Of a stretch of 64,000 nt of DNA, positions 6,108 to 43,051 are shown piece by piece (position 1 is the stretch's first letter; the number at the start of each line of letters is the position of its first letter). The DNA is from a virus: the IMG/VR virus record IMGVR_UViG_3300008050_008852, positions 62,001 to 126,000 of that record; one strand, 5' to 3'. A model generated the notes under the pieces. The model made no database searches and was not told where the DNA came from. It saw nothing but the letters and a program-made list of their open reading frames with translations. The position numbers were made by a program, and so were the translations under genes.

Positions 6108-7828
6108 CCAAATTTTTAACATACCCATCTATTTCTGCGACAATTTTTGATGTTCCAGAACCAAAAGATATAACAGGTAAATTCACATATAACTACTTTT
6201 TGCCAGATGAAAGAGAGAGTACTGACACGTTTGTATCTGCGACTAGTTTTGCCTCCCACCGAGAGACCTACGCAAGACAGAATGAAATTACGTTCTCTCC
6301 ATTGAGTGCTATAATACCAGATAATCCAGTTTTATCAGAAATTCAATTATCTAATACACAAAAGCGTAGAATTTTATTAAAGAATACTGATAAAATTTCA
6401 AAAGAAACAGAATTTATGAATTCTGGTTATGTATCAATAAAACTGCAAGATGCTACTGTTTCTACCCGCCTTTTAGCAAACGCAGAAGCCACCCTTTTAC
6501 AAAAGAGAATTAGCACCGTTTCTTTATCACCACTAGAAGTAATGTTAAAATATGCATCAGAAACGTCAGATAATATTGATGGCCAGTCAATACTTGATAG
6601 TGTAAATGTTGATGATTTAAACGAATATGTGTCAATTGATCCTGTTACAGGCGAGCAATTTGATGTTCAAAAGTCGGGTGATATTAGTGATTTGACGTTT
6701 AATGTTATATTGTCTAAAAAGTTCGCCGGTGATATAGCATTGTCCGCAGTTAAAACACCACTAAGTCCTGCTGGTGATATATTTTCTAGTGTAGTAACTA
6801 CATTAAGCGATGATCAAAGTGCTGCTCGATCTGGTGCAAGTGATTCTAGAGTAATTAGAACATCTGATTTTGTTCAGACATTTGATCCAATTCAGATAGA
6901 AAAAATTGGTTTTGGTGATACATTTCTTGGTGGTAACACAATTATGGGTTATCATATAAGAAGATATGATATTAATGATCCGGAAGACGTTTCCGATTTT
7001 TATATTACAAATACTAGTGCGACAAATTTTGTAGATAATGAAGTATTATATGGCACAACATACAATTATTCTATTGCTGTGGTGTATTTAATTCGCTTAT
7101 TTACATATAATAAAAAAAATGTTTGTGCAGCTGATATACTTGTTGAATCTAGAGAATCACCTTCAATAAATGTAACAACTAAAGAGGCGACTCCTCCAAA
7201 TGCACCCGATGGCTTAGATTTTTATTTATTGCAAAACAAAAATCTTGTAATTGAATGGGACTTTCCAGTTAATCCAACTGGTGATATAAAAAGATTTCAA
7301 ATTTTTAGGCGTACTTCAATTGATGAACCATTTTCACTAATTTCAGAACTTGATTTTGACAACAGTACTATTTTGACGACAAGAAAAGAAAATGTACCTC
7401 ATGAATTAAATCACAAACTTAGTATACCAAGAACATATATTAACGATTATGAGTTTGATTTAAATTCTAAATACATATATGCCGTATGTGCTATAGATGC
7501 CCATGATTTATCTTCATCATATAGCGAGCAGTTTTTAGTGTCATTTGACATACTAACGGCACAATTGGTAATAGAAATGATATCTGAGAAAAATGCACCT
7601 AAACCATATCCAAATTTTTTATTAAGAAACCAACTTACAAAAGATGCAATTCATGATTCAAACCACTCATCACTGACATGTTATTTTGATCCTGAATACT
7701 TAAAGATCTACAAAGGTAGTGAAGAAATTGACTTTTTGCAAGAATCGTCAACCGATCCATCATATAAAATACAATTAATACATTTAAATTTTCAACAAAG
7801 CATAGTTGCAGATATTAATGTTAAATGA
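6104..7828 (+). CDS. Virion structural protein with fibronectin-III-like domains
   Basis: The product is 574 residues. Residues about 280-350 (GYHIRRYDIND ... TTYNYSIAVVY) and 363-475 (PPNAPDGLDFYLL ... IEWDFP ... FQIFRRTS) have the strand pattern and the conserved Trp, Tyr and Pro positions of fibronectin type III repeats. The first 270 residues are not recognised. The gene overlaps the preceding stop by four bases and shares its domain style with the gene at the left edge, so the two may be paralogous peripheral tail proteins. A 25-base inverted repeat follows its stop at 7832-7856. I infer a baseplate or fibre-associated protein; the exact function is unknown. Confidence 0.6.
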   Translation: MTKFLTYPSISATIFDVPEPKDITGKFTYNYFLPDERESTDTFVSATSFASHRETYARQNEITFSPLSAIIPDNPVLSEIQLSNTQKRRILLKNTDKISKETEFMNSGYVSIKLQDATVSTRLLANAEATLLQKRISTVSLSPLEVMLKYASETSDNIDGQSILDSVNVDDLNEYVSIDPVTGEQFDVQKSGDISDLTFNVILSKKFAGDIALSAVKTPLSPAGDIFSSVVTTLSDDQSAARSGASDSRVIRTSDFVQTFDPIQIEKIGFGDTFLGGNTIMGYHIRRYDINDPEDVSDFYITNTSATNFVDNEVLYGTTYNYSIAVVYLIRLFTYNKKNVCAADILVESRESPSINVTTKEATPPNAPDGLDFYLLQNKNLVIEWDFPVNPTGDIKRFQIFRRTSIDEPFSLISELDFDNSTILTTRKENVPHELNHKLSIPRTYINDYEFDLNSKYIYAVCAIDAHDLSSSYSEQFLVSFDILTAQLVIEMISEKNAPKPYPNFLLRNQLTKDAIHDSNHSSLTCYFDPEYLKIYKGSEEIDFLQESSTDPSYKIQLIHLNFQQSIVADINVK

Positions 7829-12395: not shown

Positions 12396-12958
12396 TGAAT
12401 AACGAATTTGTAATCGGCTTAGATGTGTCAACAAGTTGTACTGGCATTTCAATTTTAAGTCTAGATGGTAAAGTAATTAATATTTCGTACTGTAAACCAA
12501 AAGGTGATACGTTAGTAGAAAAAACTATTGACTTTAAGCACTTTGTTTGTAATTTTTTGAGTATAAATGGCTTTGGAAAACCTCAACATATATATATTGA
12601 ACAAAATCTTCAAAAATTCCGGCGTGGATTTTCGAGTGCTCAAGTTATTAATAAACTTGCAAGATTCAATGGTATGGTTAGCTATGTAATGTTTGAAAAT
12701 TTTAATGTGCAACCAGAATATATAAACGTCAATGAAGGTAGAAAAGCTTTGGGTATTAAGGTTCCTCGTGGATCAAACGCTAAAGAGGTTGTCTTTAAGT
12801 GGTGTAAGCACTCATATGCTAATTTAGAGTGGCCAACAAAAAAATTAAAGTCAGGTCCGAGAAAAGGGCTTGTAATCTTAGACACATGTTGTTATGATAT
12901 GGCAGATGCCATTGTAACTGCAGCCGCCGGGATTACGTTAGATGAACGAAATAGATGA
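12395..12958 (+). CDS. RuvC-like Holliday junction resolvase
   Basis: The product is 187 residues from the ATG at 12395; a TTG three bases earlier is less likely because it has no better ribosome-binding site. The RNase-H-like fold of RuvC resolvases is shown by the first strand IGLDVSTSCTGISIL with Asp10, the second acidic motif IYIEQ with Glu69, and the C-terminal DMADAIVTA with Asp168 and Asp171. These four acidic positions match the metal-binding set of RuvC. T4 itself resolves branched DNA with endonuclease VII (gp49), an unrelated fold, so this protein probably replaces that function before packaging. It overlaps the following primase gene by 17 bases. Confidence 0.75.
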   Translation: MNNEFVIGLDVSTSCTGISILSLDGKVINISYCKPKGDTLVEKTIDFKHFVCNFLSINGFGKPQHIYIEQNLQKFRRGFSSAQVINKLARFNGMVSYVMFENFNVQPEYINVNEGRKALGIKVPRGSNAKEVVFKWCKHSYANLEWPTKKLKSGPRKGLVILDTCCYDMADAIVTAAAGITLDERNR

Positions 12959-13934
12959 CGAAAAAAGAGTATTTGAGATTAGAGCCAACTTTTTACAGTC
13001 CATTTTTGGTACTGGTGTAAAATCACCGGAGCATTTCGCCGTTTCATGTCCAGCATGTTGTTCTGAAACAGATCGAAAACATAAAAAGAAGCTTTCTATA
13101 AGATTGGCTACTGGTATGCACCATTGTTGGATATGTGGACTAAAAGGTAAGACACTTAAGTATACAATTAAAAAGTATAAACCACAATATTTGTCAGAGT
13201 ACTGTAGAATATTTGAAGAAGAAGATTATAATTCGAAAATTAAGCCTCCAGCAGAAGATGAAGAAATAATAGCAGTACTTCCATCAGGATTTATACCATT
13301 AGCTACATCTATTCCTTTAGATCCGGATCATATAGCAACAATAAAGTACCTTTTTGCACGACAAATATCTAAGGATGATTTTTATAGATACCGCCTGGGT
13401 ACCTGCATAACCGGTAAGTTTTCACGAAAGGTTATTATGCCATCTTTTGATGTAGATGGCAATTTAAATTATTTTACAGCCAGATCAATTGATTCAGATG
13501 GTTCAAAAAAATACATTAATTCAAAGGTTAAGCGGAAAGACGTAATTTTTAACGAAATAAATATTAGATGGAACAAGCCTCTTACCCTTGTTGAAGGTCC
13601 ATTTGATTTAATGAAGTGTAATTGGAATGCAACTGCAATGCTTGGATCATACTTAGATGAAAGTTATCAACTGTTTCAAAAGATAGTTAAAAATTGTACT
13701 GAAGTGATATTAGCAATGGATTCAGACGCCAAAGATAAGTGTTCAAAGATAGCACAAAAATTAAAATCTTATGGAATAAATGTAAAATATGTAAATTTGG
13801 ATAAATTTAATGATGTAGGTGAGATGACAAAGCTTGAATTTGAAGAAATATTGCGAAACGCAAAACCATGGTCATCGGTGTCATTACTTAATTCAAAAAT
13901 TAGTAATATTAGATCAAGTTCAAATTTTTTTTAA
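12942..13934 (+). CDS. DNA primase, gp61/DnaG type
   Basis: The product is 330 residues. An N-terminal zinc ribbon has ligands Cys36, Cys39, Cys62 and Cys65 (CPAC and CWIC). A TOPRIM catalytic domain follows, with Glu218 in LTLVEGPFDL and the DxD pair Asp260/Asp262 in ILAMDSDA. This is the layout of T4 gp61 and DnaG-type primases, which make short RNA primers for lagging-strand synthesis, normally with a gp41-type helicase. No helicase domain is fused here and none lies in the window. The gene overlaps the RuvC-like gene by 17 bases and precedes the gp47-like gene by eight, forming one replication-recombination cluster. Confidence 0.85.
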   Translation: MNEIDDEKRVFEIRANFLQSIFGTGVKSPEHFAVSCPACCSETDRKHKKKLSIRLATGMHHCWICGLKGKTLKYTIKKYKPQYLSEYCRIFEEEDYNSKIKPPAEDEEIIAVLPSGFIPLATSIPLDPDHIATIKYLFARQISKDDFYRYRLGTCITGKFSRKVIMPSFDVDGNLNYFTARSIDSDGSKKYINSKVKRKDVIFNEINIRWNKPLTLVEGPFDLMKCNWNATAMLGSYLDESYQLFQKIVKNCTEVILAMDSDAKDKCSKIAQKLKSYGINVKYVNLDKFNDVGEMTKLEFEEILRNAKPWSSVSLLNSKISNIRSSSNFF

Positions 13935-13942
13935 GGGATTAA

Positions 13943-14599
13943 ATGTTAAAAATTGCTCATTTAGCAGATATACATTTTAGAGGTTTATCACGTCATGACG
14001 AATACCGTTATGCGTTTGAACAGTTTTTCGATCAGTGTGATAAGATAAAACCAGATCATATAGTAATTGCTGGTGATATTGTACACTCTAAAACGCATGG
14101 TATATCACCGGAATTAGTTGACATTTTAACGTGGTGGTTTAAAACCATGGCTTCAATTGCTCCAACACATATTATACTGGGAAATCATGATGGTTTAATG
14201 CATAATAAAAGTAGGCAAGATGCAATTAGCCCAATTGTTAATGCAATTGATTCTAGTAATTTATACCTATATAAGGAATCTGGCAATTATTTAGTTGGTG
14301 ACGATATTTGTTTTAATGTATTTTCGTGTTTTGATGAAGATAATTGGGATAAAGTAGTACCAGTACCTGATAGAATTAATATAGCACTTTATCATGGTGC
14401 CGTGAAAGGCAGTGAAATTGAGACAGACTGGATAATTGAAGGTGAGGTTGAAGCAGCTATATTTGATGGTTATGATTTTGCAATGATTGGTGATATTCAT
14501 AAACGCCAAACTGTTTCGTCTAGATGGTCTACAAAAGAAATAGATGAAACGGAATTAGAGGGTTATATAGCCTCTGGTTGGGAAATTGTTAATGAGTAA
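13943..14599 (+). CDS. SbcD/Mre11 (gp47)-type nuclease, N-terminal catalytic part
   Basis: The product is 218 residues, against 339 for T4 gp47. All metallophosphoesterase motifs are present in order: HLADIHF (Asp9, His11), IAGDIVH (Asp45), LGNHDG (Asn81, His82), LYHGAV (His151) and GDIHKRQ (Asp184, His186). The chain then ends with 28 residues (191-218) that look unlike gp47 and like the tail motif of phage homing endonucleases ('ELxxYxxxGWE'). The missing C-terminal capping domain is found at the start of the next gene, in the same frame after a single TAA and one codon. The nuclease centre is complete, so a two-chain enzyme is possible. With gp46 it would resect DNA ends for recombination-dependent replication. 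Confidence 0.8.
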   Translation: MLKIAHLADIHFRGLSRHDEYRYAFEQFFDQCDKIKPDHIVIAGDIVHSKTHGISPELVDILTWWFKTMASIAPTHIILGNHDGLMHNKSRQDAISPIVNAIDSSNLYLYKESGNYLVGDDICFNVFSCFDEDNWDKVVPVPDRINIALYHGAVKGSEIETDWIIEGEVEAAIFDGYDFAMIGDIHKRQTVSSRWSTKEIDETELEGYIASGWEIVNE

Positions 14600-14602
14600 T
14601 GT

Positions 14603-17176
14603 ATGAGTAAAATAAAAATACGTAAAAAGCTTGGTCATATAAAATATCCAGGTTCAACAACACAACAAAATTTTGGTGAGTCGATTCAAAAAGGCTGGCT
14701 TTTATGGAAGATTGAGTCTAAGAATAATTTTTCAAGTGAGTTTATTGAACTGAAAAATAATAGCCCGTTTATAACACTCGATTGGTCTGAGATTGATACT
14801 AGCAACGACAGTAACCATATTATACCTTTTGGTGCCAGAATCCGCTTAAAACACCCTCAAGATATCCCGCGAGCAGAAGTTAAGCAGTTTAAGTCGTTAT
14901 TAAGAGAGAAATTTGGGGCATCTGAAATTGTTACAAGGGTTGAGGCCCTTCCAGTAAAAGAAAAGATGAAAATGTCTGATGAACAAGTAATTAATTTTCG
15001 TGATTACGGTGTTTTGTTGGCATTATTTAAAGAATTTCATATTGATAAGCAATATGATGAAGATATGTGGGAGCTTATTGCCTCCAGGTTAAAAAGATAT
15101 TGTGAGATGATTCCAAAGGCAGATTCTGCGCGCGGAACCAAGTGGTCAATTGAAAAAATGACATTTGATAACATGTTTGGTTATGGTGAAGGAAATATTA
15201 TTAATTTTGTTGAACTAAGCGGTGTTGTAGGTCTATTTGGTCGAAATAGAGTCGGCAAAAGCTCAATTCCTGGTACAATAAGTTATGGTTTATTCAATAC
15301 CTCCGATAGAGGCTCATTAAAGAATCTTCATATTATTAATACTAGAAAAAATTATTGTAAAACTGAAATAGATATCGCAATTGATGGTAAAAAATATAAA
15401 ATTCAACGCCAATCGGTCAAGAAGGTATCAAGAAAAAGTTCTATTAGCGCATCAACTCATTTAAACATATTTGAATTAAATGATCAAGGTGAAATTACCA
15501 AGGACATAACTGGAGAACAACGCCGGGACACAGATGTAGTACTTTCTAAGCTGATCGGTGATAAAGACGATTTCTTTTTAACAACATTTGCCTCTCAAGG
15601 TCAAATGAATGCTTTTATTCAACAACGCGCCACATCTAGAAAGGCTGTATTGGCTAATTTTCTTGATTTGGCCGTATTTGACACACTTTATGAATTAATA
15701 CATAAGGATGCTAGTTATATTAAATCTAAATTAGCAAAAATTCCTGAACGAAATTGGGGATCAATTATTTCTGATACTGAATGTGATATTATTGAGAATA
15801 AAGAACAAATACAAGTATTAGAATCAGAGACATCAAGCCTTCAACAACGCTTAAACGGGCTTCGACTTGAATTAAGTGATATTAACCCAAAGAATATTAT
15901 CACACGTCATGAAGTGGTACGAAAAGAAAAAAAATTAAAAGAAATATCCAATAGGTTAATAAACGTTAATACAAAAATTGTTGATATAGAAGAATTAATA
16001 ACTGATTATGATAGAAAGATAAAAAAAGCAGAGTTATTTGAATTATCTTTTCCGCTTGAGGAATTAGAACAAAAGCTTCAGGAACAATGTGTTCTTGAGC
16101 GCAATCTATTAACAATAAAGCATAAATTAGAATCAGAAAAGAATACACTCAAACGCCAACGTGAATCTGCAAAAATATTAAAGGCTGTTCCTTGTGGCGA
16201 TGTGTATCCAACTTGTAAATTTATTAAAAAGTCACATAAAGATGCAAAGATAATTGATGAACAAATTAATAGTGTTAACGAGATTAAAAAGTCAACAAAG
16301 ATAATTCAACAATCGTTTAATAGATTAATTGATCAAAAATTAGGCGATAAAATTAATTCATATCGCAAAATTGTAAAGTCGGCGACTGAAACACGCCTAT
16401 CAAAAACATCGTTAGAATTTGATTTGGCTGCATTACGAAAAGAAAAGAGTGAACTTGAAGAATCAGAAATATTAGTGTCAGATCAATTGGTCGTAATGTC
16501 ATCACAATTAATAACTGAGTCTGATAATCCGGATATTTCCATTTTAACTAAGAAAATTCAGGACCTTGAAGATTCAATTAGGAATAATGACGTTTCTAGA
16601 TTGTCATTAAGTGAAAAAAACGGTATTGCAAAAGCAAAATTAGAGCAATTAAAAGAAGAAAAGTCCGATTATGAGTCAACCCTTGGTGATTGGAGAGTTT
16701 ATGACGCTTTATTGATGGCTACTAGTAAGCGTGGGGTACCTCTTCATGTACTTAATTCTAGACTTCCAAAAATTAATGCTGAAATTGCAAAAATTTTAGG
16801 TGATAGTACAAATTTTTCTGTTACACTGGAAGCGCCGATAGATTCTAATGAAATGAATATATACATAGATTATGGTGATTCATCTCGCCCAATTGAATGT
16901 GCTTCTGGCATGGAAAAAATGTTATCGTCATTAGCTATTCGTGTAGCGTTAATAAATATATCTACACTGCCAAAATCAGATATCCTTATAATTGATGAAG
17001 GGTTTGGCTCACTTGACGATAATAATGTAGAAGCTTGTGGAAAATTACTACAGAGTTTAAAAAATTATTTTAAGACAATTTTTATTATTTCGCATGTAGA
17101 TGCTGTAAAAGATAGCGTCGATAATTTAATTGAAATAACAAAAAAAGGAGTTGATGCTTATGTTCGTGCAATTTAG
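14603..17176 (+). CDS. gp47 C-terminal domain fused to SbcC/Rad50 (gp46)-type ATPase
   Basis: The product is 857 residues; T4 gp46 is much shorter. Residues 12-170 match the C-terminal part of gp47-type nucleases (HIKYPGSTTQQNFGE, then GWLLW). The ATPase starts near 181: Walker A GRNRVGKS (213-220), a long coiled coil, a hook CGDVYPTC with Cys531 and Cys538 at its tip, a second coil, signature ASGMEK (767 on) and Walker B LIIDEG (Asp798, Glu799). It is an SMC-like motor that controls the gp47 nuclease at DNA ends. The start has only a weak ribosome-binding site, so coupling to the upstream gene or readthrough of its TAA is likely. The hook spacing (six residues between cysteines) differs from the classical CxxC. 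Confidence 0.85.
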   Translation: MSKIKIRKKLGHIKYPGSTTQQNFGESIQKGWLLWKIESKNNFSSEFIELKNNSPFITLDWSEIDTSNDSNHIIPFGARIRLKHPQDIPRAEVKQFKSLLREKFGASEIVTRVEALPVKEKMKMSDEQVINFRDYGVLLALFKEFHIDKQYDEDMWELIASRLKRYCEMIPKADSARGTKWSIEKMTFDNMFGYGEGNIINFVELSGVVGLFGRNRVGKSSIPGTISYGLFNTSDRGSLKNLHIINTRKNYCKTEIDIAIDGKKYKIQRQSVKKVSRKSSISASTHLNIFELNDQGEITKDITGEQRRDTDVVLSKLIGDKDDFFLTTFASQGQMNAFIQQRATSRKAVLANFLDLAVFDTLYELIHKDASYIKSKLAKIPERNWGSIISDTECDIIENKEQIQVLESETSSLQQRLNGLRLELSDINPKNIITRHEVVRKEKKLKEISNRLINVNTKIVDIEELITDYDRKIKKAELFELSFPLEELEQKLQEQCVLERNLLTIKHKLESEKNTLKRQRESAKILKAVPCGDVYPTCKFIKKSHKDAKIIDEQINSVNEIKKSTKIIQQSFNRLIDQKLGDKINSYRKIVKSATETRLSKTSLEFDLAALRKEKSELEESEILVSDQLVVMSSQLITESDNPDISILTKKIQDLEDSIRNNDVSRLSLSEKNGIAKAKLEQLKEEKSDYESTLGDWRVYDALLMATSKRGVPLHVLNSRLPKINAEIAKILGDSTNFSVTLEAPIDSNEMNIYIDYGDSSRPIECASGMEKMLSSLAIRVALINISTLPKSDILIIDEGFGSLDDNNVEACGKLLQSLKNYFKTIFIISHVDAVKDSVDNLIEITKKGVDAYVRAI

Positions 17177-17426: not shown

Positions 17427-17809
17427 TGCTAAATTCAAATGAAGTAAATATTTTGGGGAATATCTTTAATTCCTCATTTGGAAAATCATCACTTACATTT
17501 AATTGTAAGGCACTATTAGAAGATGATAGAATAAAAGTAATGTATAGTACATCAGCAAGTTTCGCTTCAGAGCAAGACATGCATTGGCAACAGGTGCGTT
17601 TAAGTGAAGAATCAACAGCTAGAATTGCTGATTTTATTACAAATGCAAAAAAAGAATTTAAACAAGAATCTGGTGTTGCCTTAAAACTCAACGAAATACT
17701 TGATAGGGATTCTCTTGAGCTTGTGAATGCGTCAATGAATAACCCTCGACGCGTCTTTGTCTACAGGCGCTTTGCGGAGTTTGAGATATTAAATGGCGCC
17801 AAGCAATAA
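17426..17809 (+). CDS. Conserved-looking hypothetical protein upstream of terminase
   Basis: The product is 127 residues. The ATG overlaps the previous stop (TAATG) and has GAGAGG six bases upstream. The sequence is mixed alpha/beta, with a central strand pair (NCKALLEDDRIKVMY, then WQQVRLSEE) and a C-terminal FVYRRFAEFEIL strand. I do not recognise the family. It occupies the place where T4 encodes small terminase gp16, directly before the large terminase with a 17-base overlap. The sequence does not show the coiled-coil or helix-turn-helix form usual for small terminases, so that assignment is only positional. Confidence 0.55.
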   Translation: MLNSNEVNILGNIFNSSFGKSSLTFNCKALLEDDRIKVMYSTSASFASEQDMHWQQVRLSEESTARIADFITNAKKEFKQESGVALKLNEILDRDSLELVNASMNNPRRVFVYRRFAEFEILNGAKQ

Positions 17810-19397
17810 AAAGCATCAAGTTCAAGAAATTGTAAAATGTGGTAAAGAGCCTCTATATTTTATAAATAAGTACGTAAAAATACAACATCCTGAACGTGGT
17901 ACAATATCATTTAATACCTATCCATTTCAAGACGACTGTGTAGAAAACTTTATTGATAACCGTTTTAATATAATTGTTAAATCACGTCAGTTAGGCCTAT
18001 CAACACTTGTTGCTGCTTATGCGGTTTGGTTGGCTATTTTTTATAAAGACAAAAGTGTTCTTGTTATTGCTACAAAACTAGCGGTTGCTCAAAACTTTAT
18101 AAAGAAGGTAAAAGTTGCAATTAAAAGTTTACCACCTTGGTTGATTTTACCTGAAATAACTGGTAACAATAAGCAAAGCGTTGAATTTGGTAATGGCTCA
18201 ACAATAAAGGCAATTCCGACGTCTGACGACGCTGGCCGATCCGAGGCTCTTTCACTTTTGATTATTGATGAGGCCGCATTCGTCCGCAACTTTGATGAAC
18301 TCTGGATGGGTTTGTACCCCACCTTATCAACTGGTGGTAGGGCTATAGTGCTTTCTACACCAAATGGTGTTGGTGGTCAATATTACGATCTTTATATGAA
18401 GGCAGAAAATGGTGACAACGATTTTCATGCAACAAAGCTAATATGGGATGTCCATCCAGAACGAGATGATGAGTGGTTTGAAACAGAATGTAAGGCAATG
18501 AATGAAAAGCAAATCGCACAAGAACTATTGTGTGACTTTGCCGCGGCTGGTGATACATTTTTAACTGCTAGAGAAATTGAATACATAAGGAATTGTGTAA
18601 AAGCACCGATGGATAAATGGGGCTTTGAGAACGCAGTTTGGGTATGGAAATACCCCCTAACTGAACACAAGTATTTAATCAGTGCGGATGTTGCTAGAGG
18701 CGACGGTGCAGATTACTCTACTTTTGTTGTTATTGATATTGCAAACAGTGAAGTTGTTGCGGATTTTAAGGCAAAAATACCACCAGATAATTTTGCCACA
18801 CTATTAGCCGAAGCAGGCAGACGCTATAATATGGCTACAGTAATACCTGAAAGTAATACATACGGATATGCCGTATTGATGAAATTACAAGAACTACAAT
18901 ATGAAGCCATTTATTTTGCAAAAGAAAAAGATCGTTTTGATGTGATGTATGGTGATGGTAATATTGGAAAAGCAGGCTTTTCTACACAAACGTCTTCTAG
19001 ATCAAAAATATTGACCAAGCTTGAAGAAGTTATTAGAAATAAACAGATTTTGATATATTCGTCAAGAATCTATGAAGAGTTAAAGACGTTTATTTGGAAA
19101 GGTACAAAGCCACAAGCTATGAAGGGTAAAAATGACGATCTTGTAATAGCTTTAGCTATTGGTTGTTGGTTATATGACACTTCGTCGCAATATTCAAAAC
19201 AAGTGATTGATTTAAATGCCGCCATGTTAAACGCAATGTCAGTTAATAAAACAGAGGCACCAGAGCAATTAAACGGACAGTTGAAAAAACATCAACACTT
19301 AAACCCATTTATACCAATTGTTGTATCTGAAGATCAATTTGCTAATGAAGAAGATGAAAAAAATCCATTAACCAATCTCGGTTGGTTGTTAAAATAA
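17793..19397 (+). CDS. Large terminase, gp17 type
   Basis: The product is 534 residues (T4 gp17 is 610). The N-terminal packaging ATPase has a Walker-A-like SRQLGLST (64-71), Walker B LLIIDEAA (Asp159, Glu160) and the coupling motif LSTPNG near 188-192. The C-terminal RNase-H-like nuclease begins with SADVARGDGADYS (Asp299), continues with VIPESN and ends with KNDDLVIALAIG, giving the acidic metal-binding triad. The enzyme cuts concatemeric DNA and pumps it through the portal into the prohead. It overlaps the preceding gene by 17 bases and is followed 27 bases later by the portal gene, the usual T4-type order. Confidence 0.92.
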   Translation: MAPSNKKHQVQEIVKCGKEPLYFINKYVKIQHPERGTISFNTYPFQDDCVENFIDNRFNIIVKSRQLGLSTLVAAYAVWLAIFYKDKSVLVIATKLAVAQNFIKKVKVAIKSLPPWLILPEITGNNKQSVEFGNGSTIKAIPTSDDAGRSEALSLLIIDEAAFVRNFDELWMGLYPTLSTGGRAIVLSTPNGVGGQYYDLYMKAENGDNDFHATKLIWDVHPERDDEWFETECKAMNEKQIAQELLCDFAAAGDTFLTAREIEYIRNCVKAPMDKWGFENAVWVWKYPLTEHKYLISADVARGDGADYSTFVVIDIANSEVVADFKAKIPPDNFATLLAEAGRRYNMATVIPESNTYGYAVLMKLQELQYEAIYFAKEKDRFDVMYGDGNIGKAGFSTQTSSRSKILTKLEEVIRNKQILIYSSRIYEELKTFIWKGTKPQAMKGKNDDLVIALAIGCWLYDTSSQYSKQVIDLNAAMLNAMSVNKTEAPEQLNGQLKKHQHLNPFIPIVVSEDQFANEEDEKNPLTNLGWLLK

Positions 19398-33412: not shown

Positions 33413-33463
33413 ATGAAGTTTAATGAGATAATTACTATTGAAGAATTAAAAGGAGCTCAATAA
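33413..33463 (+). CDS. 16-codon leader ORF coupled to the first sheath gene
   Basis: An ATG with CGGAG ending eight bases before it opens a frame of 16 codons (MKFNEIITIEELKGAQ). Its TAA overlaps the sheath ATG as TAATG, and its codons 13-15 contain the sheath ribosome-binding site (AAAGGAG). This arrangement resembles a translational coupling leader. No homologue is known to me, and a frame of this size may be accidental. Confidence 0.4.
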   Translation: MKFNEIITIEELKGAQ

Positions 33464-36400
33464 TGGCTGAACAAACTTTTCGATCACCCGGATTTTTTGA
33501 GAGAGAAATCGATCTATCCGGACGTACGATTGAACCAACTGGTACACCTGCTGGTGTTATCGGAACATCAGAGCGAGGACCTGCATTTATTCCAGTAACT
33601 GTAGGTTCAATCGAAGACTTCACTGCACGCTTCGGCGATCTGGATCCAAATTTGGCTGGACCATATGCTGTGAATGAATACTTAAAGCATAAAGATGCTG
33701 TTACATTTATGAGGGTTCTAGGAGCCGGTTCAAATGATACAGAATCTGAGATATCTGCAACAAAGACATATGGCATAGTTTCTAAGGCGGGTTTTAAACT
33801 CACAGATGTAGCAACTACCATCGGCGTCGCCTCAACTGCATGGGGTCACGGCGCGCCATTGTTTCTAATGGCTCAACATTACGTATCAACATCAGTTGAA
33901 TCAATGTCACTACCAGAATTTACTGATAACAGTTCTTTCCCAAACCTTGGGGCTGGTGATAATACGGTTAACTTGTTAAGAGGCGTAATATTTCCAACAA
34001 CAGGTTCAAGGGTTATTTTAGCCGACGCCGGAGCGGTGACGGCAGCTGAAGTAGATATAACTACTAATCAATGTACTGTTGATATCGATTCAACAGGTAA
34101 AACATTCAAGAAATTTAAAATAATTGTTTCTTCTTCTGCAGGTACTGGATTTTCAAATGACGACGATCTCCCTGGATGTAGAATTTACACCGCTTCATTG
34201 AATCCAACAAGTGACGATTATATTTCAAAGGTACTTAATACAGATCCAGATGAATTTCAGTCACGTCAACACTTGCTTTATCTTGACTTTGCAGTTGAAG
34301 ATGAGTTGGCTCCAGTTCACTGTTCCACAGCGGCCGGCGCTAGTGTTCCATCTACAATATTAATTACATCTGGTTCAGCCGTAGAAAATGTTTCTGGTGG
34401 ACAAAGCGACAGTTATCTTAATTCATTCGGAAGATTTGATACTCGTTACACAACTCCAAAAACACCAGCTATTATATCACAACCATTTGGTGGTACAGAA
34501 TTTGATCTGTTTCACCTTGAATCATTATCTGATGGTTCTTATGCTTCTGATAAGTTAAAGGTTAGTATTGCAAATATTAGAGCATCAACTGATAAGAATT
34601 ATCCATATAGTTCATTCGAGGTTCAGGTTCGAAGCTTTAGTGATCAAGATGAAGCAAAGGAAGTTATTGAAGCATATCCAGACGTAAACCTTGATCCTAA
34701 CAGTGGCAGGTTTGTCGGTAAGATGATTGGAGACTTTAAGCCAAAGTTTAACTTCGATTCACTTGATCTTGATGAACAACGAATTGTTGTGTCGGGTAAA
34801 TATCCTAATATGAGCAAATATGTACGTGTTGTTATTAACCAGGCTGTTTATGATGGTGAGGTACCAAAATCCGCAACACCGTTCGGCTTTCGTGGTATCC
34901 CGGTACTTAAGACAAATGATTCTATGACAGATACTCCTGGTACTGCCTTAGTAGATAAAAACGGTAATGCTGTTGGTAATGCTGCGACATTCCATAGAAT
35001 GTATAACGAATATAAGACAATAATAACTGGCTCAATTGTACCACCTCTGCCATTTAGATTCAAGCTTACTAAGGGAAATGTTCCAACCTCGGCCGGCCCA
35101 TATGTTGGTTATCCATCAAGTGTCGAGCGCGCTGATTCAAGAATGTATTGGGGTGTTAAGTTCGAGCGTTGTGCAGATATAAATAATGTTGCCAACTCCG
35201 GCTTAAATCCAAATGCTGGCTCTGTACCAAATGCAACCGTTTCTGCATATGCAAAAATGCAAGGTATAGCTGGATTAGACAACTTGGTTACTGGTTCTGG
35301 GGCAGATATATTTAACGATAATAAGTTTACTCTTTCTAGAGTGGCATTGTCTGCAACTTCAATGGCAAATGTAACATCCTCAGCCGGTGAACATATGCTT
35401 GAAGCCGCATATATAAGGAACGGTTATCCAGAGGCTAAAACATATACGATCAATGACGGTTTATTATCCGGACGTTATACACTTGCTACATTGTTAGCTA
35501 GTTCTTCAATTAAGTTTAATAGATTTACATCATATGCTAAGTTTACAACACCATTTTATGGTGGCTTTGATGGTCTCAATATTCTTGATAAAGATAACAG
35601 ATGTTTAACCGATAAAGGCGCCGCAACAGATCCTGGTGGAAAAGCTGCAGATACTATTACTGGAGGTCTTGGCCTTTATGGAACTAACGATGGTTCTATG
35701 ATGGGTAAGGGCCCACAAAACAATGCGGTATTTAGTTATAACAAGGCAATTAGAATTATGACTGATCCAATGACGGTCCGCCATAATTTGCTAGCCATTC
35801 CAGGAATCCGTGATCCATATATTACAGATGAGGCTTTAGCTGGTGTTAAGGCATATTCACTTGCAATGTACGTAATGGACATTCAACATTATGATGAAGA
35901 TGGAAATAGGTTATTTGCCGATAATCCTGCAAGACCAGATGTTAGAGAAACAGCTGAACAATTTGAAAGTCGTAGAGTTGATAACAACTATGCTGCAACG
36001 TATTTCCCTGATGTATTTATTGATGATGTTACAAATAACAAACCTGTTTTTGTTCCGTCCTCAATCGCAGCGTATGGTGCCTTAGCCTATAGTGACAGTG
36101 TTTCATTCCCTTGGTTTGCTCCAGCTGGTTTCAATCGTGGTGCACTTGGGTTTGTTAGAAACACTGAGACAAGATTAACTGCTGGTGATCGCGATGATTT
36201 ATATGACGCAAGAGTTAATCCGATTGCAAACTTTCCAAATGGAGGATTTGTAATATTCGGTCAAAAGACACTGCAAATTAATAAGAGCGCTCTTGATAGA
36301 GTCAATGTACGTCGAATGCTTCTTGAAGTTAAGCGACAGATTTCTAGTATTGCAAAACAACTTCTTTTCGAGCCAAATAACGCAAATACTCGAGCTCGTT

Positions 36401-36609
36401 TCATAGGTCAAGCTGCTCCAATATTATCATTGATTCAATCACAATCTGGTATTGAAAAGTTCTCAATAGTAATGGACGGTACAAACAATACGCAGGAAGA
36501 TATCGATGGAAATCGTCTTAATGGTCGAATAGTTGTTGTTCCTACTAGAGCAATTGAATACATTGCAATTGACTTCGTTATTACTAATGCTGGAGTTGAA
36601 TTCGCGTAA
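33463..36609 (+). CDS. Tail sheath protein, gp18-type, copy 1
   Basis: The product is 1048 residues (T4 gp18 is 659). The N-terminus has the sheath pattern TFRSPGFFEREIDLSG ... AGVIGTSERGPAFIPV, and the C-terminal domain the typical RVNVRRMLLEVKRQI ... LLFEPNN ... RAIEYIAIDFVIT, ending with a strand that serves as the inter-subunit arm. The phrase FPWFAPAGFNRGAL (near 885) is shared with copy 3. The sheath is a contractile polymer around the tube. Between about 110 and 180 this copy differs from copies 2 and 3. It is coupled to a leader ORF upstream, and its TAA overlaps the ATG of copy 2. Confidence 0.9.
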   Translation: MAEQTFRSPGFFEREIDLSGRTIEPTGTPAGVIGTSERGPAFIPVTVGSIEDFTARFGDLDPNLAGPYAVNEYLKHKDAVTFMRVLGAGSNDTESEISATKTYGIVSKAGFKLTDVATTIGVASTAWGHGAPLFLMAQHYVSTSVESMSLPEFTDNSSFPNLGAGDNTVNLLRGVIFPTTGSRVILADAGAVTAAEVDITTNQCTVDIDSTGKTFKKFKIIVSSSAGTGFSNDDDLPGCRIYTASLNPTSDDYISKVLNTDPDEFQSRQHLLYLDFAVEDELAPVHCSTAAGASVPSTILITSGSAVENVSGGQSDSYLNSFGRFDTRYTTPKTPAIISQPFGGTEFDLFHLESLSDGSYASDKLKVSIANIRASTDKNYPYSSFEVQVRSFSDQDEAKEVIEAYPDVNLDPNSGRFVGKMIGDFKPKFNFDSLDLDEQRIVVSGKYPNMSKYVRVVINQAVYDGEVPKSATPFGFRGIPVLKTNDSMTDTPGTALVDKNGNAVGNAATFHRMYNEYKTIITGSIVPPLPFRFKLTKGNVPTSAGPYVGYPSSVERADSRMYWGVKFERCADINNVANSGLNPNAGSVPNATVSAYAKMQGIAGLDNLVTGSGADIFNDNKFTLSRVALSATSMANVTSSAGEHMLEAAYIRNGYPEAKTYTINDGLLSGRYTLATLLASSSIKFNRFTSYAKFTTPFYGGFDGLNILDKDNRCLTDKGAATDPGGKAADTITGGLGLYGTNDGSMMGKGPQNNAVFSYNKAIRIMTDPMTVRHNLLAIPGIRDPYITDEALAGVKAYSLAMYVMDIQHYDEDGNRLFADNPARPDVRETAEQFESRRVDNNYAATYFPDVFIDDVTNNKPVFVPSSIAAYGALAYSDSVSFPWFAPAGFNRGALGFVRNTETRLTAGDRDDLYDARVNPIANFPNGGFVIFGQKTLQINKSALDRVNVRRMLLEVKRQISSIAKQLLFEPNNANTRARFIGQAAPILSLIQSQSGIEKFSIVMDGTNNTQEDIDGNRLNGRIVVVPTRAIEYIAIDFVITNAGVEFA

Positions 36610-39600
36610 TGCCAAGCCCAGGTACTGAATGGTCGCGAGGATCATCTCTTCCAGCAGTTCAAGTAGTTGCTGGGGGGGAGGGTCTTGGTGTAATAGGAAC
36701 GTCCCCAAAGGGCCCGGCCTTTATACCCACGTCATTAAAAGATATTTCTGGCTTTGAGACAAAGTATGGAGCTATCTCGGGCGCTAGCTTTGGTATGTTA
36801 GCCGCCCAAGCCTGGTTAGCTAATTCTGAAGGTTGTACTTTTATGCGTCTACTTGGCATTGGAGATGGTCTAAAACGTCTATCTGCCGATTCAACAAATT
36901 CTGATGGAGAATCAATAGCTCCCGGCGCAGTAAAGAATGCAGGGTTCGTAGTGGGCGCCGAAATGACCGGCTCAAACGGAATGTTAGGACCTAATCCATA
37001 CGCAGTAAGCGGTGGTCCACCTGGTCGAACATATTTCCTCGGCGCATTTATGTCAGAGTCAAAAGGTAGTACGTATTTTTCTGATGCTGGTATCCAACCA
37101 ACCACAGACGGTGTACCGATCTTAAGAGGCGTTCTATTTGCGCCATCTGGTGTTATACCATCATTATCAGGTTGTTATACAGAAAACACCTCAACGGCTT
37201 CATTAGGCCCTGCTGCTGGTAATTTTCTTGGTTCAAATGATGGTGGTGCTTCAATAGGCTCAATTTATAAAGACGGTGACGTTTCAGAAAAATTTGTTTT
37301 ATTGTTAAATGGTCATATTTCAACTACTGAATATCCAAATGAAATTAGTGCATCATTAAACACTACAATGACAGATGATACTGGTGTCGATATTTATTTT
37401 GCCAACGCATTCAATACCAATCCAACTAAAATCCGAGAAGCCGGACATTATTTATATACGTATTATGATATTGATCAATCACAAGCAAAAGTTGATGGAA
37501 CTGGCTTTGTAGACCCGGGTTCAACAAAGATAGACGCATATGAGAAAACATTAGAAGATGCAATTTTTCTAACCACATCATCGATGGATAGAAATCCAAA
37601 TGATACTGCTGGTTCTTTATCAATTCCAAATTTTGAAAATTTTTGTGATAGATATCAGACAGCAAAAACACCAGTAATATTTTCACAGTTTATAGATAGA
37701 CAACAATTTGACTTATTTCGATTTCATGCTCTTGATGATGGAACAAATATTGGATCTGAATTAAAGATCACAATAAGAAATCTTGTCCCTCAACTAACAG
37801 ATGATTTATATGGTACATTTGATGTTGTGGTTAGAGATTTGACAAACACCGATGCGGACTTTGGTGCAATTGCTTCCGCGGAAGAATTTATAGGGTGCAA
37901 TTTAGACCCTTCGTCTGAGTTTTATATTGCAAGAGTTATTGGTGATAGACACTTCTATTTTAACTTTGATACAGATAAAACAAGGCAAAAATATGTCCGC
38001 ACCGGTGACTACGAAAATAAATCGGCTTACATTCGTGTTGAAGTAAATCCGGCAGTTGAGAAACAAATTCTTCCAACAAAAGTTTTACCAGCCGGTTTCA
38101 GGGGCCCATATCATTTAGTCACGGCCGGTTCAAGTATTTTAAGCAATAATCAACACCCACTTAGTGATGGTTCGGTTATACCATCATCAACTTCTTGGGC
38201 TCATAAAATAGTTCAATCACCTATACCATACCGTGTTCAATTAAGTAATAATGATAAAACGTCAGATGGAATAACTTTTTTAGAGACAAAAACTGTTGAC
38301 GAAAATGCGAAATATTGGGGTATTAAAACATCAAAACATAAATCGATAGAAGAGCCAAACACAGATCAAAATCAAAATACAAGCTTTATTTCTTATTTAA
38401 AATATTTTCCAACATTCATGACGAATAGAATAAATCCATGGGCTGGAGATAATAATGGTGTTGATGACTCTGACGATACAATATATGATTCGGACCGTTT
38501 TAATAATGCTAAATTTAGTTTAGAAAATATATTAATTCATACAACGTCCTACTGGATTGATGGTATCAAAATTGATGCCCTCGGCGCAGCCATCCCACCG
38601 ATAGATATGGGAATTGATGACACACAATGGGCTTATGCAAGATATAGACCAGATAGAACAAAGATACCGTTAATTGATAAGACCCTTAAACTAAAATCAG
38701 GTGTTAGGTTTTTTGATTTTTCAAAAGATTTATCTATTACTACACCAAATACTTACGCTGGCTTTACAGTTCCGTTACAAGGCGGATTTGATGGTTTTGA
38801 TATGTTTTCTATTGAGAAAACAAATTTTTCAAATCTTGCATCATACTTTGAAATGCAGGATGAAAATCAGGGTCAAAAAACAGGTGCTACCACGGCTGCA
38901 TATTTGACGGCACTTAGAATACTTGAAGAAAAGTCTGAAGCTGCAATTAAATTGTTGGCAATTCCCGGTATCAGATTAGAAGCAATTACAAATAAAGCGT
39001 TACAAGTGGCTGAAGAACGCTTCGACGCGTTTTATGTTATGGATATAGAAGAGGTTGATTCTGAAGGTAATATTTTGTTGACAGGTAGTCATCCTGGTGT
39101 CACAGTTGCTCCAGATCCTACATTAACAGCGAGTAGATTTAAGTCAAGGGCATTAGATAGCTCATTTACTGCCGTATATTTTCCCGACATTCAAATGAGG
39201 AATCCATCGGTTCCATCAAGTGTTATATTTACTCCTCCATCAATATCGGCAATTAGGGTTTATAGTAGATTGTCGGCCGCAGGTAATATTGCTGCACCTG
39301 CAGGTACAAAAAGAGGTATTATAGATACTACCGATGGGACTTTGGGTTTAGCTATTCAACCAAAAGTTATTTTTGACGACACTCAAAAAGAAACAATTCA
39401 GACATTATATGACGCGGTAATAAATCCAATAATATCCAGTACTGATGGGCCAATGATCTTTGGTCAACGAACAACACTTAGTTCTGCTGACTCGATGTTA
39501 CAGCGTGTTGCAGTTAGAAGAATGATACTAGAAATTAGGCGTCTCGTCAGGGAAGTTGCTAAAGGTTTCTTGTTTGAGCAAAATAAAGAATCGACAATGA

Positions 39601-39791
39601 AGGCTTTCGAAAAATCAGTAAGACCATTAGTTCAGCGAATGGTCAATGCTGGCGGGATATCTAAATTTAAGGTTCAGATAGACACATCAACCACATCACA
39701 GGTAGATATTGAAAATAATGTTGTAAGAGGAATGGTCTTTTTACAACCAACAAAATCAGATGAAATAATTCAAGTGGATTTTTCCACATAA
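36609..39791 (+). CDS. Tail sheath protein, gp18-type, copy 2 (divergent termini)
   Basis: The product is 1060 residues. It is clearly sheath-like: LGVIGTSPKGPAFIPTSL near the start, GGFDGFDMFS in the middle and MLQRVAVRRMILEIRRLVRE with FLFEQNKEST near the end. The N-terminal 20 residues differ from copies 1 and 3 (MPSPGTEWSRGSSLP). The FPWFAPAGF motif is replaced by AAPAGTKRGI, and the chain stops at QVDFST without the final 'VxTNxGxE' strand. It shares short identical DNA patches with copy 3. I infer a specialised sheath subunit, for example at an end of the polymer, because the terminal arms that knit neighbouring subunits are the parts altered. Confidence 0.85.
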   Translation: MPSPGTEWSRGSSLPAVQVVAGGEGLGVIGTSPKGPAFIPTSLKDISGFETKYGAISGASFGMLAAQAWLANSEGCTFMRLLGIGDGLKRLSADSTNSDGESIAPGAVKNAGFVVGAEMTGSNGMLGPNPYAVSGGPPGRTYFLGAFMSESKGSTYFSDAGIQPTTDGVPILRGVLFAPSGVIPSLSGCYTENTSTASLGPAAGNFLGSNDGGASIGSIYKDGDVSEKFVLLLNGHISTTEYPNEISASLNTTMTDDTGVDIYFANAFNTNPTKIREAGHYLYTYYDIDQSQAKVDGTGFVDPGSTKIDAYEKTLEDAIFLTTSSMDRNPNDTAGSLSIPNFENFCDRYQTAKTPVIFSQFIDRQQFDLFRFHALDDGTNIGSELKITIRNLVPQLTDDLYGTFDVVVRDLTNTDADFGAIASAEEFIGCNLDPSSEFYIARVIGDRHFYFNFDTDKTRQKYVRTGDYENKSAYIRVEVNPAVEKQILPTKVLPAGFRGPYHLVTAGSSILSNNQHPLSDGSVIPSSTSWAHKIVQSPIPYRVQLSNNDKTSDGITFLETKTVDENAKYWGIKTSKHKSIEEPNTDQNQNTSFISYLKYFPTFMTNRINPWAGDNNGVDDSDDTIYDSDRFNNAKFSLENILIHTTSYWIDGIKIDALGAAIPPIDMGIDDTQWAYARYRPDRTKIPLIDKTLKLKSGVRFFDFSKDLSITTPNTYAGFTVPLQGGFDGFDMFSIEKTNFSNLASYFEMQDENQGQKTGATTAAYLTALRILEEKSEAAIKLLAIPGIRLEAITNKALQVAEERFDAFYVMDIEEVDSEGNILLTGSHPGVTVAPDPTLTASRFKSRALDSSFTAVYFPDIQMRNPSVPSSVIFTPPSISAIRVYSRLSAAGNIAAPAGTKRGIIDTTDGTLGLAIQPKVIFDDTQKETIQTLYDAVINPIISSTDGPMIFGQRTTLSSADSMLQRVAVRRMILEIRRLVREVAKGFLFEQNKESTMKAFEKSVRPLVQRMVNAGGISKFKVQIDTSTTSQVDIENNVVRGMVFLQPTKSDEIIQVDFST

Positions 39792-39795
39792 ACAT

Positions 39796-39849
39796 ATGAC
39801 TAATAGTTTTTGTGATGAATACTTACTATTGTTAAAAGAGGAGCTATAA
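39796..39849 (+). CDS. 17-codon leader ORF before the third sheath gene
   Basis: An ATG five bases after the copy-2 stop opens 17 codons (MTNSFCDEYLLLLKEEL). Its last codons, GAG GAG CTA, form the ribosome-binding site of the next gene, and its TAA ends one base before that gene's ATG. It has no clear ribosome-binding site of its own, so translation would depend on re-initiation after the copy-2 stop. It is weaker than the two similar leaders at 7897 and 33413. Confidence 0.28.
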   Translation: MTNSFCDEYLLLLKEEL

Positions 39850-39850
39850 C

Positions 39851-42800
39851 ATGGCGGAACTTACATTTAAGAGTCCCGGTGTCAGTACAAAGGAAATTGA
39901 TTTAAGCGGACCAACATCAATTTCGCCAACAGGTGTACCTGCTGGTATTATTGGAACTGCAAACCAGGGTCCTGCTTTTGTGCCAGTCACTGTGGCCACA
40001 TTCGCAGATTTTATGACATACTTCGGTAAAACCGACGGCGAAAAATTCGGTCCACTTGCAATGTATGAGTGGATGAAGAATGCTAACGCAGGAACATATT
40101 TACGTGTTCTTGGTGTTGGTGATGGTAAAAAGCGATTATCCGCTGCCGGCACAAATGCCGATGGATCTACCATTCCAGCTGGTGGTGTTAAAAATGCCGG
40201 CTTTATAGTTGGCGATCGCCAGGTTAATATGGCAACCGGCTTAGTTGGTGTTAATAAATATGCATATAATGGTGCCGGCACAGGTGACTTAGGTAGAACA
40301 TATTTCCTCGGCGCATTTATGTCAGAGTCGGAAGGCTCTTCATATTTATCTGATGCTGGTATTCAATCTGCAGGCTCAGACAAATCATCAGCGATCCTTC
40401 GTGGTGTCTTAATGGCCGCCTCAGGTGTTATGCTTTCACTTTCAGGCAACTTTTGCCATGGCAATGCATCAACTGCATCACTTAATAGTTTACCGGATTT
40501 TGATCAAGGATCAACATCCGGTGGTTCTTCAATAGGCTCAATTTATAATAATAGTGGTGTAGGTCGTACTCACAATAAGTCGTATAATTTTGTTATGTTG
40601 TTAAATGGTCATAAAACTACAGAACAATATTCAAACACATTGACTGCGTCACTTAATCCAGCACGATCAAATTATATAACTGAGGTATTTAACACTGATC
40701 CTTCAAAGATCCAGAAAGCTGGCCACGTTTTATATTCACACTATGATGTATCCACTGCTCAGGCTGTTATTACTGGTTCTGGATTAATTCCGGCATGGGT
40801 TACCGCTTCTGCTGGAGCGTTAGACAGTCGGTATACTGAAGAAGCTGTATTCTTGGTTACGTCATCTCTTGATAGAAATGTAGGTTCTGAAACAATTCCA
40901 AACCTTGAAAACTTTAGTGATAGATTTCAACATGCTTTCTCACCTGCAGTTATTTCACAAAAGATTGGAGGCAAGAATAAAGACTTATTTACAGTTCATA
41001 TGCTTGATGCTGGAGCCTTTACAAATACAAATGTTAAGGTATCCATTGAAAACATTAGAAAGTCCAAGGTAGACGATGATTATGGTGTCTTTGACCTGTT
41101 GGTACGTAAGTTTTCAGATGGTGATGAGTCAGTTGCCATTGTAGAGACCGGCGAAACATTCAGAGGTCTTTCGCTTGATCCAAGTTCAGACAATTATATT
41201 GCTCGCCGAATTGGAACAATAAATAAGTTTTATGATTTTGATAAATTACCAGCATCACAGAAAATTGTTGTTGATGGTATTCATCCTAATATGTCACGAT
41301 ATATTAGAGTCGCGATGACAACTGAAGTTGATAATGGTGATATTACGAAAACTGCATTGCCAGTTGGTTTTAGAGGTCCGTATCACCTAGTAACATCTGG
41401 CTCAGGTATTACAATGAATTTCCAGCATCCACTCAACGAAGCCAATGACATGGCCGTCGGTGCTATATTTACAAGAACTGATGACTTAAATCCTGGTAAT
41501 GAAATTATTGAACCACCAATTCCTTATAGAGTGTCTATATCTGATGGCACTGGCGGAAAGAAAAAACCAAACAGTTCTTATTACTGGGGTCTTCAAACAA
41601 CTCAAGTTGATGTCGCAACGACAACGAATTCAAGTCGTATATTCAATAATGGAATCTCTGGATTTACAAAATATTATCCTAAGTTTGCCACTGGTCAACA
41701 GGCTATGTGGGTTGGAGCAAATAATGGTACAATAGATTCAGATGGTACTGTTTATGATTCTGATAATTTTAATAATAACTTATTTTCGCTTGAACAGATT
41801 CAGATTCATACAAAATCAACCGCGGATGTGGTCGATGGCAGAGAATGGGGTTTTGCAAAATATCGTAGAAATAATGAACTAGCTACCCGGGTATTCTTCC
41901 CAAAGAAGGATGGAACAACTGACACCGGCCGTTTCTTAAATGTTGCTAAAGACTTCGGTGATATCGCATCGTTTAAGTACTTTAAGTTTACAATGCCAGT
42001 TCAAGGCGGCTTTGACGGTGTCAATGTTTTTGACAAAGATAAAACAAAATTAGTAGACAATGCTGCTAAGCGTGAGATGAGTGATGAAAATCAAGGTGAG
42101 GTCGAAGGCCCCACTGTCGGCGCATATCTTAAGGCACTTCATATCATGGCTGAAAAGAGTGATGTTGATATCCAACTTTTGGCAGTACCAGGTATCCGAG
42201 AAACAAAAATTACCGACGACGCTATTGCTAAGACTGAAGGTCGTTTTGATGCATTATATATTATGGACATGGAAGAGCGTGATGTAAGTAATAATGTTGT
42301 AACATCATCTGCTCAAGAACTTAGTGTTACAAATACGATCGAAGATCTTAGAGGTAGAGCACTCGATACATCGTTTGCTGCAACATATTTCCCTGACACG
42401 ATTATTCCTGATCCTGTAACACAAACTAACGTACGTGTTCCACCATCTGTTAGCGTTCTTGGCGCTTTATCGTTAAATGATGCAGTTGCATTCCCATGGT
42501 TTGCTCCAGCTGGTTTTACTAGAGGCGCTTTGGCAAATGTCTTTGACACAACAGTTAACTTCAATAGGGCTAATCTTGACTCATTGTACGAAAGCGATAT
42601 TAACCCAATCACACAGTTTCCTGATAAGAAAGAACATGTTATCTTCGGACAGAAAACACTACAGGCTGCAGCATCATCACTTGATCGTGTAAATGTACGA
42701 CGCTTGCTTATCGATGTTCGTCGTAAAGTCCGTAATATTGCTGACACATTCATCTTTGAACCAAATAGAGCTGATACACTTGCAAGATTCTCAGCAGCTG

Positions 42801-42994
42801 TTAATCCAGTGTTAGCACAGGTTCAAGCACAACAAGGTGTTGAACGTTACCGTGTTATTATCGACACTACAACAACAACTCAAGCAGATATTGAAAATAA
42901 TACTGTTAGAGGAAAGATATTTATGCAACCAACCCGCGCGGTTGAGTTCATTGCTCTTGACTTTGTTGTTACAAATAATGGCACTGAAATCTAA
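39851..42994 (+). CDS. Tail sheath protein, gp18-type, copy 3
   Basis: The product is 1047 residues. It has the full sheath layout: TFKSPGVSTKEIDLSG ... PAGIIGTANQGPAFVPVTVA at the start, GGFDGVNVFDKDKT in the middle, FPWFAPAGFTRGAL near 880 and LDRVNVRRLLIDVRRKVRN ... VEFIALDFVVTNNGTEI at the end. It resembles copy 1 at both termini and copy 2 in the segment RTYFLGAFMSES (about 150-160), so the three genes are mosaics of each other. GAGGAG lies just before the ATG and a strong terminator follows. With an intact C-terminal arm and C-ending codons it may be the main sheath subunit. Confidence 0.9.
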   Translation: MAELTFKSPGVSTKEIDLSGPTSISPTGVPAGIIGTANQGPAFVPVTVATFADFMTYFGKTDGEKFGPLAMYEWMKNANAGTYLRVLGVGDGKKRLSAAGTNADGSTIPAGGVKNAGFIVGDRQVNMATGLVGVNKYAYNGAGTGDLGRTYFLGAFMSESEGSSYLSDAGIQSAGSDKSSAILRGVLMAASGVMLSLSGNFCHGNASTASLNSLPDFDQGSTSGGSSIGSIYNNSGVGRTHNKSYNFVMLLNGHKTTEQYSNTLTASLNPARSNYITEVFNTDPSKIQKAGHVLYSHYDVSTAQAVITGSGLIPAWVTASAGALDSRYTEEAVFLVTSSLDRNVGSETIPNLENFSDRFQHAFSPAVISQKIGGKNKDLFTVHMLDAGAFTNTNVKVSIENIRKSKVDDDYGVFDLLVRKFSDGDESVAIVETGETFRGLSLDPSSDNYIARRIGTINKFYDFDKLPASQKIVVDGIHPNMSRYIRVAMTTEVDNGDITKTALPVGFRGPYHLVTSGSGITMNFQHPLNEANDMAVGAIFTRTDDLNPGNEIIEPPIPYRVSISDGTGGKKKPNSSYYWGLQTTQVDVATTTNSSRIFNNGISGFTKYYPKFATGQQAMWVGANNGTIDSDGTVYDSDNFNNNLFSLEQIQIHTKSTADVVDGREWGFAKYRRNNELATRVFFPKKDGTTDTGRFLNVAKDFGDIASFKYFKFTMPVQGGFDGVNVFDKDKTKLVDNAAKREMSDENQGEVEGPTVGAYLKALHIMAEKSDVDIQLLAVPGIRETKITDDAIAKTEGRFDALYIMDMEERDVSNNVVTSSAQELSVTNTIEDLRGRALDTSFAATYFPDTIIPDPVTQTNVRVPPSVSVLGALSLNDAVAFPWFAPAGFTRGALANVFDTTVNFNRANLDSLYESDINPITQFPDKKEHVIFGQKTLQAAASSLDRVNVRRLLIDVRRKVRNIADTFIFEPNRADTLARFSAAVNPVLAQVQAQQGVERYRVIIDTTTTTQADIENNTVRGKIFMQPTRAVEFIALDFVVTNNGTEI

Positions 42995-43020: not shown

Positions 43021-43051
43021 GAGGGGACCTAAATGGTCCCCTCTATTTTTT
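43021..43051 (+). terminator. Rho-independent terminator after sheath copy 3
   Basis: A nine-base stem (GAGGGGACC with GGTCCCCTC), a five-base loop and TATTTTTTT close the sheath transcript. The right arm reaches the stop codon of the antisense endonuclease at 43043-43045. On the opposite strand the hairpin is not followed by a T-run, so it mainly serves the + strand. Confidence 0.88.

Follow-up and report, generated by a model that had tools for sequence, protein, structure and literature searches.

In phage T4, the nuclease and the ATPase of the gp46/gp47 pair are encoded by separate, complete genes. Proteins in which Mre11 and Rad50 are fused have already been described, Mimivirus R555 among others (PMC3175470). 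A different kind of gene breakage is known from Aeromonas phage Aeh1, where a homing endonuclease has split nrdA and the split enzyme is functional (PMC2988022), forming an (alpha-a + alpha-b)2 beta2 complex (PMC3267527). As far as we found, Aeh1 NrdA was previously the one well-studied case of a split enzyme assembled by element-derived tails. Crona et al. reportedly showed in 2011 that these NrdA tails are essential for activity. Moreover, Dassa et al. are said to have described, in 2009, “fractured genes” in which split inteins occur together with Vsr-like endonucleases.

The window, i.e. the whole 64,000-nucleotide stretch of DNA analysed here, covers positions 62001–126000 of a 128-kb phage contig. 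According to the ORF list and the sequence, two ORFs on its plus strand, at 13943–14599 and 14603–17176, share one frame and meet at a TAA stop (14597–14599) followed by a lone TGT codon (14600–14602), exactly as the initial annotation had described them. The first ORF (N-chain, 218 aa) is an SbcD/Mre11 phosphoesterase over its first 189 residues, followed by a C-terminal tail. The gp47 catalytic motifs previously assigned to it were recovered as DIH, GDIVH, GNHD, YHG and GDIHK, with matches to Pfam Metallophos (E=3e-12) and PHROG SbcD (E=7e-14), and they correspond to the DxH, GDxx(D/H), GNHD, H and G(H/D)xH series of the calcineurin-like phosphoesterases in Mre11-Rad50/SbcD-SbcC enzymes. The predicted structure resembles those of SbcD/Mre11 with Z up to 24.8 (7dog_B, rmsd 3.6, 275 aligned residues).

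The second ORF (C-chain, 857 aa) starts with a short N-terminal head, continues with the remaining nuclease core at 14639–14755 (IKYPGSTTQQNFGE...; placed by spacing comparison and predicted structure) and a capping-domain region at 14756–15145, whose boundaries, taken from the predicted structure and the start of the PHROG_77 match, are approximate, and ends with an SbcC/Rad50 ATPase with coiled coil at 15146–17173 (PHROG_77, residues 182–849, E=6e-49). Together with this match, the motifs read from the sequence, namely GRNRVGKSS (Walker A, 15239–15265), the putative zinc hook CGDVYPTC (16193–16216), SGMEK and IIDEGFGSLD, give the Walker A/B, signature and zinc-hook coiled coil of an ABC-type ATPase. 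The locus is flanked on the same strand by a DNA primase/Toprim gene (12942–13934), syntenic in relatives L001 and L002, and by a terminase large subunit gene (17793–19397), syntenic in L001, L002 and L155.

The enzyme family and its domains are shared with T4 gp46/gp47, yet the window differs from that pair in having its capping domain fused to the ATPase and its nuclease core split. The intact relatives of the window gene belong with the R555-type fusions, with which they share the domain order (nuclease first, capping region next, ATPase last); the window also has GDIH in place of GHxH, a motif variant seen in R555 (PMC3175470). A nuclease and an ATPase in one polypeptide, in the gene order of the window, are encoded by the IMG/VR loci L001 (1039 aa) and L002 (1046 aa), and fused single proteins occur in Microcystis phage Mel-JY01 (1066 aa), in Thermus phage phiLo (867 aa) and in a 735-kb uncultured phage record (1202 aa). 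In a family-alignment search the best 80 of at least 579 relatives were fusions; a single-protein search with the C-chain as query returned no viral relatives. The sister of the window in the host-gene tree, L155 (support 100/100, 67–68% identity), is likewise a fusion; its site is uninterrupted and the genes downstream are those of the window, so that L155 and other relatives have as one polypeptide what the TAA splits in the window. Because the relatives encode one fused Mre11/SbcD-Rad50/SbcC protein, the fusion is old and the break recent. Judged from these sequences, the ancestral state in the clade is a single Mre11-Rad50 fusion gene, and what the window carries is a fusion that has broken, not a pair that has been rearranged. 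The initial annotation was therefore right in seeing that the nuclease is split and its C-terminal portion joined to the ATPase, but not in measuring it against the standard gp46/gp47 layout, the reference of the clade being the fusion. It had also allowed for relatives with ordinary separate genes together with an erroneous TAA, whereas the nearest relatives turned out to be fused. Unlike the described Mre11/Rad50 fusions, that of the window is cut within the nuclease domain and is probably made as two chains.

The break lies directly after GDIHKRQ, within the nuclease core. The spacing from GDIHK to Y.GS is near-constant in intact relatives, and the window exceeds it by about 36 residues, stop included; these ~36 codons around the stop (~108 nt), which make up the tail and the head, are missing from every intact relative compared. 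In a comparison of predicted structures, single-domain phosphoesterases align to residues 1–271 of the joined chain, and since this range spans the break at residues 219–221, the break falls inside the catalytic domain. In this model, the C-chain contributes the final strands of the nuclease core, followed by the capping domain and the ATPase. An earlier placement of the break in front of the capping domain holds in so far as that domain is on the second chain, but the cut itself is further upstream.

This arrangement recalls Aeh1 NrdA-A/MobE/NrdA-B, in which a free-standing homing endonuclease cuts a gene in a functionally critical region, as we propose here. In the window, as in split genes of the Aeh1 nrdA type, the host gene is uninterrupted in close relatives and the fragments carry extra terminal sequences without counterpart in intact homologues. 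The tail of the N-chain (14510–14596, 29 aa, TVSSRWSTKEIDETELEGYIASGWEIVNE) is acidic with a net charge of -5, and the head of the C-chain (14603–14638, 12 aa, MSKIKIRKKLGH) is basic, about +5, and fits the M[SGN]K(K)IKI pattern of heads in the split relatives. Both Aeh1 fragments also have oppositely charged extra ends, with the charges reversed (tail +6, head -10). A homology of the tails to those of Aeh1 was considered and is not supported, 382 of 2000 shuffles being equally good. Apart from the different gene, the window differs from Aeh1 in that its endonuclease is gone, TGT alone being left between the halves, and in that about 20 lineages share the tail/head pair at one site, with several endonuclease types.

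These ~20 further phage lineages carry a tail and a head of the window type at the identical codon, with varied content between them; the initial annotation had suggested looking for the same layout in related phages, and it exists at this very codon, although the nearest relatives are fused. The split relatives were collected with a GDIHK-anchored DNA pattern and a gene-independent tail DNA pattern, and 17 of the 17 matches of the latter were in Mre11 nuclease fragments, at the break site of the window. Both searches required a GW-type motif, and consequently the uniformity of the tails is partly due to selection and inserts lacking GW would be missed. When two tails alone were used as queries, none of 174 candidates was confirmed by tblastn. 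An endonuclease ORF lies between the halves in L004, L106, L112, L131, L163, L168, L169 and L172. In L004 (LR756508), which is split at the site of the window and has a related tail, it is a 305-aa gene whose product has a TnsA-like nuclease domain besides zinc-finger-like cysteines; zinc-finger/NUMOD3/DUF559-type or TnsA-type genes separate tail and head in L106, L112, L131, L163, L168, L170 and L172, and a LAGLIDADG gene does so in L169. Apparent endonuclease remnants are found in L164, L165 and L166, and a 103-aa ORF in L173. No gene is left between the halves in the window (3 nt), L150 (2 nt), L171 (2 nt) and L126 (15 nt), and L113 and L137 have a “healed”, uninterrupted ORF in which the tail is joined to the head in frame.

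The gene between the halves in L122, L123, L138, L142, L152, L153 and L158 has no recognisable endonuclease identity, so the site houses cargo other than endonucleases as well; no confident Pfam match was obtained for it, and by eye only it looks glycosyltransferase-like. The nuclease is not fused to an ATPase in L106, L112, L131, L113 and L168, so the insertion is independent of the fusion. In the host-gene tree (52 rows), in which gains and losses of the insert are not separable, the state of the insert changes about 10 times, at least 8 of these changes being forced by well-supported branches, and such changes fit a mobile element. Looked for elsewhere, the L004 endonuclease had only generic zinc-finger/HNH genes as matches, none of them in Mre11. 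A target-site duplication upstream of the endonuclease is borderline in L131 and absent in three other loci. In L112, a near-perfect hairpin (TTTGGTGATATT/AATATCACCAAA, about 6320–6360, reverse strand) lies directly before the endonuclease start, and L131 has a sequence akin to it that resembles the target site. The hairpin is reminiscent of the RNA hairpins that repress the translation of T4 endonucleases.

Tail and head behave as a conserved pair. None of 2000 shuffles with the GW pair held in place came as close to nine independent tails as the window tail did, tails were net acidic and heads net basic in 10 of 10 sampled cases, and stop and start are at matching places across the split relatives. 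The tail alone has no Pfam match, and the healed insert matches neither a Pfam family nor the annotated phage collection. A structure prediction of the two chains together had been proposed; AlphaFold2 was run on joined chains, which cannot prove association in trans, and two structure runs left out the L003 and L004 rows. For the window chain (stop replaced by Tyr), the insert is predicted as beta-alpha-beta from the tail and one beta strand from the head (pLDDT ~76–88), and in the healed L113 chain (insert pLDDT ~86–94) the flanking strands are predicted to continue the core hairpin. On these models, the tail/head module probably clips the two chains together.

We consider it likely that a homing endonuclease once inserted into an ancestral fused gene and left its scar in the window, where two chains are now produced by termination and reinitiation and joined by the tail/head module. 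A homing endonuclease would have entered the fused Mre11(SbcD)-Rad50(SbcC) gene behind the conserved GDIHKRQ codons, thereby dividing the nuclease domain and giving the upstream chain an acidic tail and the downstream chain a basic head. The endonuclease gene would have been lost later, with TAA-TGT-ATG remaining between the halves. Two polypeptides would be produced by termination and reinitiation three bases downstream, a route favoured by the ATG sitting three bases past the TAA. Tail (beta-alpha-beta) and head (beta) probably then form one small folded unit that lengthens the interrupted beta-hairpin and keeps the chains together, so that the metal-binding nuclease part on chain 1 could complete its fold with strands of chain 2, which also bears the capping domain and the ATPase. 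Against this reading, the window holds no endonuclease at the site, nor a copy elsewhere in its genome at E<=1, and its former presence is deduced from the relatives; we infer its loss in the window lineage, as well as the reinitiation, the assembly by tail and head and the nuclease activity.

The initial annotation had left the choice between a separate chain bearing the active site and readthrough. Readthrough of the TAA at some rate would yield, as the active enzyme, one polypeptide of ~1077 residues in which the insert forms an internal domain. The window and L126 do indeed have their halves in one frame, and a continuous chain can accommodate the module, as the uninterrupted in-frame versions of L113 and L137 show. 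Yet readthrough cannot join the halves in L150 and L171, where the 2-nt gap puts them in different frames, nor in the many tail/head relatives with ~0.9 kb in between. Since tail and head serve these relatives as well, separate chains are the simplest common mechanism; moreover, most split forms keep a Met start with the conserved M[SGN]K(K)IKI head, as a real start predicts. Of the two options the separate chain is hence favoured, and we regard readthrough as unlikely.

Mobile insertions often damage genes, and the halves could instead be remnants of a nuclease inactivated by the insertion. The endonuclease remnants of some relatives and a further frame break in the ATPase part of L126 would agree with such decay. 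Both window ORFs, however, are full length with every motif intact and the gene order kept, and comparable two-chain states persist across many lineages. In three close pairs of one split cluster, which belongs to other phages than that of the window, the tails differ by 17 synonymous and 4 nonsynonymous changes, a ratio pointing to purifying selection on the tail in that cluster. A gene in decay is accordingly an improbable explanation.

Splicing or skipping of the element, be it by a split intein, by an intron or by ribosomal bypassing of the T4 gene 60 type, seems highly improbable to us, even though inteins are near in this family. L145 (185–1810, minus strand) and L126 have a LAGLIDADG-bearing intein at GNHD|C of the split nuclease gene, which makes this gene a target of two kinds of mobile elements. 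In L131 (1–2263, minus strand) an apparent split intein interrupts the ATPase gene at Walker A, with another ORF between the halves and an Intein_splicing match in the C-part (E=1e-5). At the window break, in contrast, the 29-aa tail and 12-aa head are far short of a Hint fold; neither halves of such a fold, nor Cys/Ser1, nor a C-terminal His-Asn before Cys/Ser/Thr were found, the tail starting at Thr. Because the tails are too short and without splicing residues, no ligated product is expected. No Rfam match to group I or II introns was obtained, either for the window at E<=1 or for eight insert-bearing loci at the gathering threshold, and a coding tail conserved as protein would be unneeded in a sequence that is excised or skipped. 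In this respect the break, which lacks an intein, differs from the fractured genes attributed above to Dassa et al., with which the split relatives otherwise share a conserved phage gene broken around a free-standing zinc-finger/Vsr-like endonuclease. Finally, a sequencing or assembly error as the source of the stop codon or the insert is scarcely credible: although the window comes from a single metagenomic contig and a second copy of the genome was not found, the insert matches an independent tail/head family with stop and start in matching places, and the TAA, falling where other split relatives stop, is no sequencing error.

The interesting part of this locus is the conserved tail/head pair, at one codon and around many kinds of cargo, the fusion gene itself being of a known kind. 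Perhaps, with about even chances, the pairing tag of acidic tail and basic head is part of a mobile cassette aimed at one codon of phage Mre11, which would house unrelated endonucleases or other cargo without splicing, outlast its cargo and be healable into a permanent internal domain. Compared with the single Aeh1 case, this would be a conserved and recurrent version, whose states in nature are empty, occupied (by several endonuclease types), decayed, emptied and healed. As all these states of the insert are seen in nature, the way in which the damage done by selfish genes is neutralised without RNA or protein splicing becomes testable. For mechanistic studies, the locus also provides a Mre11-Rad50 that is naturally in two chains, and its tail and head are candidate pairing peptides. 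The open-access literature that we searched contained no report of a split gp47 or of this insertion site, which is no proof of novelty.

Two other regions of the window deserve mention. The phage carries another apparent homing endonuclease, a 548-aa ORF at 43043–44689 (minus strand) that lies between tail genes and matches PHROG homing endonuclease/HNH families (E=1e-79). At 33463–42994, three consecutive genes of ~1050 aa, each with a tail-sheath domain as its last part, form an unusual tandem of sheath paralogues.
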